The position numbers were made by a program, and so were the translations under genes. Shown one piece after another: positions 41,821 to 45,835 of a DNA stretch of 64,000 bases. The notes under the pieces were generated by a model. It had not been told where the DNA came from and made no database searches. It worked only from the letters and a program-made list of their open reading frames with translations. The number at the start of each line of letters is the position of its first letter. Within the stretch, counting starts at the first letter, position 1. The DNA is from Synechococcus sp. Tobar12-5m-g (GTDB lineage Bacteria > Cyanobacteriota > Cyanobacteriia > PCC-6307 > Cyanobiaceae), in the NCBI RefSeq assembly GCF_024345415.1, contig NZ_JAGQBB010000004.1:62001-126000 (forward strand). Direction: 5' to 3'.

Positions 41821-43392
41821 CTAGGGATCCCCGGCCGCGAGCCTGTCCAGCTTGCTTTCCAGGTAGCTCAGGAAAGCGGTGGGATCGAGGGGAGCACCGC
41901 AGACCCGCTCCACCAAAGCCTCACCTGTGACGCTGCGGCCGAGGGGGTGCACATGAACCCGCAGCCAATCCCGCAGGACAGCGTCCTCCCCGGCGGCCAG
42001 GCGGGCCTCGATCGGCCCGGTTTCCCGTTCCATCGCTTCGGCCAGCTGGGCCGCAATCAGATGGCCCAGGGCGTAGGAGGGGAAGTAGCCGAACAGGCCT
42101 TCGCTCCAGTGGACGTCCTGGAGGCAGCCTTCGGCCGCATCGGCGGGCCTGACGCCCAGCAGCTCCACCATCAACCGGTTCCATTCCGCCGGCAGCTCCT
42201 CCACCGGCAGATCGCCTTCGAGCAGGGCAAGCTCCAGGTCGAAGCGCAGCACGATGTGGAGGCAGTAGCTGAGCTCGTCGGACTCGACGCGGATCGCACC
42301 GGGCCGGCGGGGATTGAGGGCTCGCCAGAACTGATCGGGATCGTCCCAGGCCCCGGCTGCGCTTTCGGCCAGTGCCTGGCGGAAGCGGGGCTGCCAGCGC
42401 CGCGCGAAGGCCTCGCTCCTGCCGACTCTGCACTCCCAGAACAGGCTCTGGCTTTCGTGCACGCCCATCGAGGTGGCCTCACCCAGGGGCCAGGCGAACC
42501 ACTGATGGTCGTGGCGGGGCAGGCCCTGTTCATAGAGGGAATGGCCCCACTCGTGGGCGGTGGCCAGGAAGGCGGAAAACGGCTGGCCGGGCACCACCCG
42601 GCTGGTGATCCGGAAGTCGGAGGGGCCCAGGGTGGTGGAGAAGGGATGGGGGGAGCAGGCCAGCACCGCGCAGCTGGCGTCGAAGCCCCACTCCTGCAGG
42701 AGTTGCCGGCAGAGCTGCTGCTGCACCGGATCCGGCAGCGCCAGCCCGGTTGGATCCCAGCCAGCATGACCGCCGCCGCTAGCCGGGGCCGGGCTTCGCC
42801 CGTAGCGCTCGATCAAGGTCGGCAGCCGTTGGCGCAAGGGCGCGAACAGCGCCGCCAGCCTGGCCTTGCTGATTTCCGGCTCAAACGGCTGGGCCAGGGT
42901 TTCCCAGCAGCTGCGCGGCGAGCCGCCTTGGCCATGCTCGACGGAAGCGAGTTGGCGGGCCTGCTCCTTGCGCAGGGTGATCAGCTCGCCGAGGGCGGGG
43001 GCGAAGCGGCTGAAGTCGGCCTGGCTGCGGGCCTCCTGCCAGAGGGCGTAACCCCGGGCCTGGGCCAGGGCCAGGGCCGCCACCAGGGCGGGATCGAGCT
43101 GCCTCTGCCGCTCCAGCTCCTGGCGCAGCAGGGCCAGGTTCCGTTGCCAGGGGTCGCTGGATCCAGCGGGCGGCAGTTCAGCTTCGGCGGCGGCCAGCAG
43201 CTCCGCGTAGGCGTCGCTGCTCTGGCGCTCGTGGAGTTGCCGTGCCAGAAGGGCCAGTTGTTCACCCCGCCAGGCCGCACCCGCCGATGGCATCAGCGTG
43301 TTCTGATCCCAGTAGAGGATGCCGTGGATGCTGCCCAGCAGCCGCGTCTGGCGCACATGGGCACCCAGCCTCTCCAGCGCCAGCGTTGCCAT
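41821..43392 (-). CDS. Metallocarboxypeptidase, M32 (Taq) family
   Basis: The 523-residue enzyme removes C-terminal residues from peptides in the cytoplasm. The zinc motif HEWGH lies in ATAHEWGHSLYEQGLP; other family motifs are GILYWDQNTLMP near the start, GEATSMGVHESQSLFWE, VESDELSYCLHIVLRF and HWSEGLFGYFPSYALGH. ATG 43392 gives MATLALERLGAHV; the frame open upstream has no better start. Its 5' end faces the DUF2721 gene 67 bp away. Confidence 0.95.
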   Translation of the reverse strand: MATLALERLGAHVRQTRLLGSIHGILYWDQNTLMPSAGAAWRGEQLALLARQLHERQSSDAYAELLAAAEAELPPAGSSDPWQRNLALLRQELERQRQLDPALVAALALAQARGYALWQEARSQADFSRFAPALGELITLRKEQARQLASVEHGQGGSPRSCWETLAQPFEPEISKARLAALFAPLRQRLPTLIERYGRSPAPASGGGHAGWDPTGLALPDPVQQQLCRQLLQEWGFDASCAVLACSPHPFSTTLGPSDFRITSRVVPGQPFSAFLATAHEWGHSLYEQGLPRHDHQWFAWPLGEATSMGVHESQSLFWECRVGRSEAFARRWQPRFRQALAESAAGAWDDPDQFWRALNPRRPGAIRVESDELSYCLHIVLRFDLELALLEGDLPVEELPAEWNRLMVELLGVRPADAAEGCLQDVHWSEGLFGYFPSYALGHLIAAQLAEAMERETGPIEARLAAGEDAVLRDWLRVHVHPLGRSVTGEALVERVCGAPLDPTAFLSYLESKLDRLAAGDP

Positions 43393-43459
43393 TCGATCCG
43401 TGCTCCCTTGGGGTGCGTGGTGCTGGGTACATTGAAGCCAATTGCCACGACCGGGGCCG

Positions 43460-43906
43460 ATGAGTCTGCGCGACGCCTCGGCGGTGGCCGGCCTGTCCCG
43501 GGCCATTCAGTTGTCGGTGGCGCCTGTCTTTCTACTCACGGGCATCGGCGGCCTGCTGGGCACCTTCACGGCACGTCTCAGCCGCATCATCGACCGCACC
43601 CGCCTGCTGCAGGAGGCGATGGAGAGGGGAAACATCGCCCAGGCCAAGCGGTTGAAGGCGGTGTTGATCGTGCAGCGCCGCCGCCTCTTTCTGATCAACC
43701 GGGCGATCCTCTGCGCCACCGTCACCGCCCTGCTGGTGTCCGGGGTGGTGGCGGTGCTGTTCATCAGCGCCGTCGCGGCTGTTGATCTAGCCACGATCGT
43801 GGTGCCGGTCTTCGTGCTGGCAATGGTTTCGCTGATCGCGGGCCTGCTTCTGTTCCTGCTGGAGGTGCAACTGGCGATTTCCCAGAACCCGCCTCGGTAC
43901 TACTGA
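43460..43906 (+). CDS. DUF2721 membrane protein
   Basis: The 148-residue protein has a first hydrophobic stretch (LSVAPVFLLTGIGGLLGTF), a cytoplasmic helical segment RLSRIIDRTRLLQEAMERG and QRRRLFLINRAI, and two more helices (ILCATVTALLVSGVVAVL; IVVPVFVLAMVSLIAGLLLF). The pattern is that of DUF2721, a family of unknown function. ATG 43460 is preferred to a TTG at 43442. Confidence 0.85.
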   Translation: MSLRDASAVAGLSRAIQLSVAPVFLLTGIGGLLGTFTARLSRIIDRTRLLQEAMERGNIAQAKRLKAVLIVQRRRLFLINRAILCATVTALLVSGVVAVLFISAVAAVDLATIVVPVFVLAMVSLIAGLLLFLLEVQLAISQNPPRYY

Positions 43907-43973: not shown

Positions 43974-44000
43974 GATCATTGGAAGCTACGGACAGGGGTG

Positions 44001-44762
44001 ATGGACATCACACCACTGCTCGGGCGCGAATCCCTGGGAAGGGAACAGGCGATTGAGCTGTTGCGGGATCAAACCCTGATGATCGTCAGTGGGCGACGGC
44101 TGCTGATCACCCTGATCACCGGTACAATCGGCCAGCCCGATCAATGGCTGGGAGCAGCCACCTGCGAGGAGCAGGGTCTGGCACTGCTGGCGAGGCAGCG
44201 CCCTGACCTTCTGTTCGTGACCGACCCCCTGGAGGCCGGCAGTGGATATGGCCTGGTGAAGCGGGCAAAACAGCTCTACCCTGATCTGGCTTGCCTGCTG
44301 TTGCTGGAACGGGATACCCCCGACATACTGCTGGCAGCCCTCGAATCGAACTGCGACGCCATCTGCCTAGAGAGGATGGGCCTTGGCAATCTGGTGGCGG
44401 CGATCCGGGCCGTGATCATCGGGGGTGAGGTCTACATGGACGCTTCGGTGGCCGCGATGTTGCACCGGACCCGCCGAGAGTGGATCAAGGGAGAGCCCCA
44501 ACGCCTTACCCCCAGAGAATTGCAGGTGCTCGAAGAGATGCTGAAGGGCTTTAAAACCCGCGAAATCGCAGCGCGACTTTTCATCTCCCTGGAAACGGTG
44601 CGCAGCCACAGCAAGGCGATGCTGGCCAAGCTAAAGGCCCGCAGTCGGATCCATGCGGCGGTGATCGCCCTAAGGCTGGGACTGGTGCGATTGGACCTGC
44701 CAGACGCAGCCGACGATCGATACCACCGGACGGAGGTGTCCTCTTACTTGCGGCGGCAGTAA
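44001..44762 (+). CDS. LuxR-type regulator with degenerate receiver domain
   Basis: The 253-residue protein has an N-terminal receiver-like domain and a C-terminal LuxR/NarL helix-turn-helix (LTPRELQVLEEMLKG, TREIAARLFISLETVRSHSK). In the receiver the candidate phospho-Asp is present (DLLFVTDPLEAGSG), but the acidic pair after strand one is absent (MIVSGRRLLI), the Thr/Ser switch position reads LLLLERD, and the conserved Lys is replaced (CDAICLERMG). It is therefore probably phosphorylation-independent. The start is ATG 44001 (or GTG 43998). The end overlaps the convergent Cys-rich gene by 19 nt. Confidence 0.85.
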   Translation: MDITPLLGRESLGREQAIELLRDQTLMIVSGRRLLITLITGTIGQPDQWLGAATCEEQGLALLARQRPDLLFVTDPLEAGSGYGLVKRAKQLYPDLACLLLLERDTPDILLAALESNCDAICLERMGLGNLVAAIRAVIIGGEVYMDASVAAMLHRTRREWIKGEPQRLTPRELQVLEEMLKGFKTREIAARLFISLETVRSHSKAMLAKLKARSRIHAAVIALRLGLVRLDLPDAADDRYHRTEVSSYLRRQ

Positions 44763-45007
44763 CCGCCGCCGATGTTCATCCAGCCCGCAGGGCAGGCTTC
44801 ACCGTTGGTGGGAGTGACCGTGTAGCTCACCACCCCGAGGGTGCTGCACTTGCCGTTGAACGTGTCCACATAGCCGAGGGGGCACAGGGCCTGGAGCTTG
44901 GGGATCACCTCCTGGGCCGAAGCCGGAGTGCCTGGAACCAGCAGGACCGCAGATCCCACCAGGCCAAGGGCCACCGAGAGGATGAAACGGGACGGGCAAG
45001 GGCCCAT
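44744..45007 (-). CDS. Small secreted protein with two 13-residue Cys modules
   Basis: The 87-residue precursor starts at ATG 45007 with a signal peptide (FILSVALGLVGSAVLLVPG, cleavage likely after ASA). The mature part contains two copies of the pattern C-P-x-G-aromatic, then two positions, a hydrophobic or Thr, two small residues, G-x-C: CPLGYVDTFNGKC (42-54) and CPAGWMNIGGGYC (72-84). Each probably forms a disulfide loop in the periplasm. No family recognised; conservation cannot be checked here. Convergent with the LuxR regulator. Confidence 0.7.
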   Translation of the reverse strand: MGPCPSRFILSVALGLVGSAVLLVPGTPASAQEVIPKLQALCPLGYVDTFNGKCSTLGVVSYTVTPTNGEACPAGWMNIGGGYCRRK

Positions 45008-45086
45008 GGGATGACAGGCCAGTTGAATCAATCCTCAGAGTATGGGGCCCTGGCCATTGATGACGCTGGACCACTGTGACACTCCC

Positions 45087-45455
45087 ATGGATCCCCCCGC
45101 CACGCCGGACCTGAACGTCCTGGCGACACGGATGGAGCAGCTGGAGAAGGAAATCAAGGCATTGAACACCCTGCTCACGGCGCTGCGACCCATCCTGGAG
45201 CGGCTGCTCGAAACGGTTGAACCCCACCAGGGGCAAGCCCCGCCATTCGCGCAGGATCCAGGCTCCATGGCACCGAAGGACTCCCCGCTACAGGCTGCGG
45301 CGCCAGGAACCTCGACACTGTTGGCGCGCCGCAATGCCGAGCGCCTCAACGCCGAGGTGATGCGCCGCAGCGCCCGGGGCCTCGACCCCGACAACGACAC
45401 CGAGCTGGATCTGCTGATCGACCGGCTGCATGAACTTTCGGAGGAGCAGCCCTGA
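45087..45455 (+). CDS. Small coiled-coil protein, unknown
   Basis: About 122 residues from ATG 45087 (45060 would add nine). A strong heptad stretch (LATRMEQLEKEIKALNTLL, then LRPILERLLETV) predicts a coiled coil; a Pro/Ala linker precedes a second helical part (RRNAERLNAEVMRRSARG) and an acidic end (DPDNDTELDLLIDRLHELSEE). No family recognised. It sits 90 bp before the pterin dehydratase gene. Confidence 0.65.
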   Translation: MDPPATPDLNVLATRMEQLEKEIKALNTLLTALRPILERLLETVEPHQGQAPPFAQDPGSMAPKDSPLQAAAPGTSTLLARRNAERLNAEVMRRSARGLDPDNDTELDLLIDRLHELSEEQP

Positions 45456-45544
45456 GAGGCCTCGATGGAGCAGGAACTGAGCACCTTTTGCCGTTGGCCG
45501 CGGCAACCCTGCCAGGCTGAGGGGTGTCTGTGATGGAATCCGCC

Positions 45545-45835
45545 ATGGCCGCCAGTCCCCTCTCTCCCGAGGAGATCACCGAGCTCAGCTCCAGCCTGCC
45601 CGACTGGAGCGTGGTGAACGGCAAGCTGCACCGGGGCCTGATCTTCGATTCCTTCGTGGAGGCGTTCGGCTTCCTCACCCAGGTGGCCTTGATCGCGGAA
45701 TCGATGGGTCACCATCCAGAGCTGGGCAACATTTATAACCGCGTGATGATCGATCTCATCACCCATGACACCGGCGGCCTCTCCAGCCTGGACCGGGACC
45801 TGGCCCTGCGGATCAATGGGCTGCTGAAGGCATGA
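45545..45835 (+). CDS. Pterin-4a-carbinolamine dehydratase
   Basis: The 96-residue protein (from ATG 45545; 45533 and GTG 45524 are alternatives) is the small DCoH/PhhB fold: LPDWSVVNGKLHRGLIF, then SFVEAFGFLTQVALIAE, MGHHPELGNIYNRVMIDLITH and a final helix DRDLALRIN. The HHPE and TH residues form the active site. It recycles oxidised pterin cofactor; in cyanobacteria lacking an obvious hydroxylase the substrate is debated. The end overlaps the convergent kinase/AAA gene by 23 nt. Confidence 0.93.
   Translation: MAASPLSPEEITELSSSLPDWSVVNGKLHRGLIFDSFVEAFGFLTQVALIAESMGHHPELGNIYNRVMIDLITHDTGGLSSLDRDLALRINGLLKA

Follow-up and report, generated by a model that had tools for sequence, protein, structure and literature searches.

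On the minus strand of the 64,000-nucleotide stretch analysed here (the window), positions 44744–45007 hold what is, judged by its conservation, a genuine and vertically inherited gene for a small exported protein. The frame opens with ATG at 45005–45007, closes with a stop codon at 44744–44746 and encodes 87 residues, MGPCPSRFILSVALGLVGSAVLLVPGTPASA followed after the predicted cleavage site by QEVIPKLQALCPLGYVDTFNGKCSTLGVVSYTVTPTNGEACPAGWMNIGGGYCRRK. Its product represents an uncharacterised, lineage-restricted family whose leader is predicted to direct export and whose mature part carries two cysteine loops, the sequences pointing to an internal duplication of approximately 30 residues of which the loops are the two halves. 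The family lacks annotation, is carried by roughly half of the genomes sampled from one family of picocyanobacteria, an ecologically important group, and is notable for its clean duplicated cysteine-loop architecture. In addition, an apparently ancestral, translationally coupled neighbour encoding a DCC1-like oxidoreductase offers a concrete way into testing both proteins, neither of which has a known function. The coordinates of the features are collected in Table 1.

Table 1. Features of the miniprotein gene and its surroundings, in window positions.
Feature	Position	Strand	Basis
CDS of the predicted exported miniprotein, subfamily A, 87 amino acids	44744..45007	-	ATG-started open frame, homologues, purifying selection
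Predicted signal peptide, residues 1–31 (MGPCPSRF...TPASA), without lipobox Cys at the cleavage site	44915..45007	-	Read from sequence
Predicted mature miniprotein, residues 32–87, 56 residues, QEVIPKLQALCPLGYVDTFNGKCSTLGVVSYTVTPTNGEACPAGWMNIGGGYCRRK	44747..44914	-	Conserved block
Repeat unit 1, residues 34–54, containing loop 1 (C42–C54)	44846..44908	-	Internal repeat test
Repeat unit 2, residues 64–84, containing loop 2 (C72–C84)	44756..44818	-	Internal repeat test
NarL/LuxR-type regulator with degenerate receiver domain	43998..44762	+	GerE 4e-18; Response_reg below cut-off
Divergently oriented neighbour of unknown function, with 45087 as a possible start	45042..45455	+	Synteny cluster C13
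Pterin-4a-carbinolamine dehydratase (PhhB), syntenic neighbour	45524..45835	+	Pfam PF01329 7e-26; synteny
DUF2721 protein, syntenic neighbour	43442..43906	+	PF11026 3e-31; synteny
Presumed M32-type carboxypeptidase-like protein, syntenic neighbour	41821..43506	-	Synteny cluster 2

The leader reads as a Sec-type signal peptide, MGPCPSRFILSVALGLVGSAVLLVPGTPASA, ending in AxA before Q, and A31-Q32 at the predicted cleavage site is invariant in homologues; the remainder of the leader diverges quickly between relatives. The mature part shares 71–95% identity with 14 relatives and ends in G-Y-C-R-R-K, a basic C-terminal tail (CRRK, CRKK or CKKK) being found in the family. Cysteines occupy residues 42, 54, 72 and 84, and all four are kept in 73 of 73 distinct full-length homologues with the spacing C-x11-C-x15/17-C-x11-C; two of the 73 carry an extra Cys beside the second cysteine. 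An earlier note on this DNA had described a small exported protein of two repeated cysteine loops; the analysis supports this, export being judged by the leader. With its export signal and conserved even number of cysteines, the protein would be a candidate for the small disulfide-rich exported proteins, which is a structural class and not a homology family. The loops, CPLGYVDTFNGKC (loop 1, residues 42–54) and CPAGWMNIGGGYC (loop 2, residues 72–84), are separated by 17 residues, and the positions that the note had given without a strand match the 87-residue minus-strand frame exactly. The frame is short and the antisense frame of the same segment is also open, as might be expected of a chance reading frame; conservation refutes that reading, to which we assign next to no probability. 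Homologues are present in four of the four genomes of the genus, the cysteines are invariant, and dN/dS amounts to 0.05 in the comparison with the closest relative, Synechococcus sp. CS-1325, and rises to 0.43 with the most distant relatives tested (0.05–0.43 over all non-saturated comparisons), values that indicate purifying selection on the gene. A lack of homologues with conserved cysteines, which had been named as the sign of a chance frame, is the reverse of what was found: homologues are abundant and keep all four.

Residues 34–54 and 64–84 align without gaps (VIPKLQALCPLGYVDTFNGKC and VTPTNGEACPAGWMNIGGGYC) and share the consensus V-x-P-x5-C-P-x-G-[YW]-[VM]-[DN]-x3-G-x-C over about 21 aligned residues, in which V, P, C, G, Y/W, D/N, G and C are the best conserved. 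With the cysteines held fixed, this alignment obtains a score of 36, shuffled sequences giving −2 ± 9 (P = 3e-4); a family-profile version of the test gives P = 1.7e-4; the P values are somewhat flattering, the frame having been picked after the repeat was seen. It is the width of the aligned repeat, greater than that of the loops alone, that argues for an internal duplication. The protein falls in no known family: no match above cut-off was obtained in Pfam, NCBIfam, PHROGs or the PDB (the last searched by single sequence and by profile). The repeat is larger than had been noted. The shared loop pattern is present in the window protein and is not kept throughout the family: a Pro behind the first Cys is invariant in loop 1 but not in loop 2 (25 of 42), and subfamily B, described below, lacks the G-x-C ending of loop 1. 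The pattern suggested for a search, C-P-x-G-[YWF]-x(6)-G-x-C, is one residue too long, both loops having x(5). Over 194 genomes of the phylum it matched in 46, with roughly 60 matches against roughly 50 for a reversed-pattern control, and none of these matches fell at a gene of the miniprotein family.

A scan of named genomes yielded 15 loci, which lie in Synechococcus, Vulcanococcus, Cyanobium and related bins. A profile search picked up the miniprotein or its paralogue in half of the sample taken from the taxonomic family (200 of 400 genomes), a count that admits E values up to 0.1 and includes a few weak matches to other proteins. Outside this taxonomic family, the profile search of phylum and class samples returned only fragments with E above 0.005, several of them with stop codons, and searches of phages, viral contigs and plasmids returned no homologues. 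Most of the listed small genomes lack the miniprotein. Two paralogous subfamilies are recognised, A (the window gene; CPLGYVDTFNGKCSTLG) and B (CPLGYVNTLGTTCVSPIYYE..., often with a KKKTLGIF tail). Many genomes contain both; only A is present in the window genome. In one genus, B stands in tandem after A (L063, L065–L067) and is followed by DUF6737. Some marine genomes contain copies of the family broken by in-frame TGA (L120, which is G140:C1:781106, and G130:C1:1166641), probably decaying paralogues. In one marine genus (L151–L154) the subfamily B gene has beside it, convergently where the orientation is given, a gene for a thioredoxin-like protein that contains a WCPAC motif and is predicted to be exported.

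No description of the miniprotein family was found in the literature, nor any expression or proteome evidence. A weak match to the CPW-WPC domain (PF09717, TIGR01492; Pfam E 0.0044, best NCBIfam E 0.0058) covers 16 of 59 profile positions, in loop 2, and scores 18.3 bits against a curated cut-off of 23. The likeness consists of a C-P-x-G-W-x5-G-x-C stretch in a cysteine-containing protein of repeated modules that is secreted, in the case of the miniprotein by prediction; CPW-WPC proteins are apicomplexan surface proteins. Of the N-terminal signal peptide and the secreted or surface location expected in that family, a predicted signal peptide with a conserved cleavage site is what the miniprotein sequence shows. 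However, each CPW-WPC domain has six conserved cysteines and six aromatic sites (PMC11285972) and ends in W-x-C (WPC; PMC3637178), whereas the miniprotein has two cysteines per repeat, four in total, and no WPC end. With the score under the cut-off and the six-cysteine, six-aromatic and WPC features missing, membership was rejected, and the resemblance is probably convergent. The EbfG proteins of Synechococcus elongatus PCC 7942 are small secreted proteins that promote biofilm formation (PMC9260433) and, compared by description, resemble the miniprotein as small secreted cyanobacterial proteins. EbfG proteins have a secretion motif of the microcin type and require PteB, whereas the leader of the miniprotein is of the Sec type and its surroundings contain no genes of that kind. 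A second predicted-secreted family was noticed in Prochlorococcus and marine Synechococcus (L122:440–1099, minus strand; L123:769–1248, plus strand), with the pattern CxxAKDYxGCVxAMxG ... CPxG[YF]xxxGxGxC ... KCPxGEPxxGxNSTC. It has matches in 20 of 81 family genomes, is absent from the window genome and corresponds to no Pfam family. The L122 and L123 proteins carry CPSGFADVGGGNC / CPTGYAYIGQGYC, which match loop 2 of the miniprotein (E 0.0016–0.01), within open frames of 159–219 amino acids whose overall architecture is unlike that of the miniprotein.

As to function, we favour a passive, disulfide-stapled binding or structural module of the envelope or cell surface, a reading to which we give about an even chance. 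Duplication of a unit of approximately 30 residues with one 13-residue cysteine loop would have built a 56-residue Sec-exported protein, the cysteines of which would oxidise after export, most simply within each loop. The oxidised form would be a small stable scaffold, mostly loop and strand, in which Gly and aromatic residues are conserved and the C-terminal tail is basic; it might hold to an anionic envelope component in the periplasm or at the cell surface, acting as neither enzyme, toxin nor signal. We infer the pairing within each loop, the location and the envelope-binding role from these sequence features, by which the periplasm, the thylakoid lumen and the outside are indistinguishable as the site of the protein. 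An AlphaFold model made from 15 sequences, without subfamily B, reached a mean pLDDT of 61 and a pTM of 0.38, so that fold and disulfides are not confidently predicted and the model is too weak for use. The similar loop type in the second, larger predicted-secreted family of the same group counts for the proposed role. Being small, basic, exported and cysteine-rich, with paralogues that stand in tandem in one genus, the protein might instead be a secreted peptide signal or a bacteriocin-like antimicrobial; this is improbable given its high conservation, purifying selection and single fixed locus, neighbours that look housekeeping with no recognisable immunity gene or transporter adjoining, and a Sec-type leader where a double-glycine leader would be expected. 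The variable distribution that, together with such a leader and immunity or export genes, characterises bacteriocins and microcins was likewise not seen, nor was a mobile-element distribution, and the lack of phage, viral-contig and plasmid homologues speaks against a mobile toxin. Hardly more probable is a small lumenal or periplasmic subunit whose loops dock on a bigger assembly such as a photosynthetic complex: the limitation to one cyanobacterial family, the conserved Gly and aromatic residues and the absence from most small genomes would suit it, but no neighbouring gene comes from such a complex, and a protein missing in many picocyanobacteria is not a core subunit.

Subfamily A occupies one syntenic place in many genera, in the order PhhB (−), C13 (−), YjbQ (UPF0047; −), miniprotein (+), ..., DUF2721 (−) and M32-type carboxypeptidase-like (+), and this fixed locus fits a resident gene. 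In 23 of 54 distinct subfamily-A loci the miniprotein gene is directly followed, on its own strand, by a gene for a DCC1-like thiol-disulfide oxidoreductase (PF04134; E 5e-25 and 1e-29), the start of which overlaps the miniprotein stop as ATGA or GTGA in at least eight loci (L011, L016, L134, L138, L139, L146, L164 and L165); in one further A locus the DCC gene lies upstream. Since the arrangement occurs in widely separated genera, we take this operon-like order to be ancestral. The DCC1-like proteins form a separate family that has the operon-like arrangement in common with the miniprotein, no homology being claimed; AT1G52590, one of its plant representatives, figures in a list of plastoglobule proteins (PMC12587418). 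Such an order could mean that the oxidoreductase encoded downstream has the miniprotein as its substrate or partner, or as a reporter of thiol-disulfide state, and a DCC gene, 64% identical, is still kept on another contig of the window genome. We nevertheless regard this as rather unlikely: the DCC proteins seen have no signal peptide ahead of the CxxC-containing domain, with which they begin directly, and look cytosolic, whereas the miniprotein is predicted to be exported; the pairing has been lost in the window's genus and others with the miniprotein retained; and the subfamily B loci seen have no DCC neighbour. Less probable again is an ancestral picocyanobacterial pair made up of the exported module and a DCC protein that is cytosolic or membrane-associated, the two together sensing thiol-disulfide state, or transmitting it, across the envelope or thylakoid; if true, this would give the DCC protein a biological role. 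The favoured passive envelope module, in its pure form, leaves this operon partner of many lineages unexplained.

In the window, the place held elsewhere by the DCC gene is filled by the LuxR-type regulator gene, which is convergent with the miniprotein gene, overlaps its 3′ end by 19 bp and is found in 9 of 54 subfamily-A loci, those of the window's genus and its neighbours. The earlier note had mentioned this adjacency; the orientation and the narrow occurrence led us to reject the regulator as a functional partner, and the presence of the DCC gene at its place in other lineages implies that it says little about miniprotein function. The acidic pair with which receiver domains usually begin seems to be missing from the regulator, whose receiver score is under the cut-off, and phosphorylation-independent action would be plausible from its sequence. 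No NtcA, HLR1, Pho or Zur box was found upstream of the miniprotein gene. The product of 41821–43506 is presumably an M32-type carboxypeptidase-like protein. The short product of 45042–45455, the gene of which is syntenic across many genera, has no Pfam or NCBIfam family above cut-off and possesses a conserved C-terminal motif, DTELDL[LM]IDRLH[DE]L.
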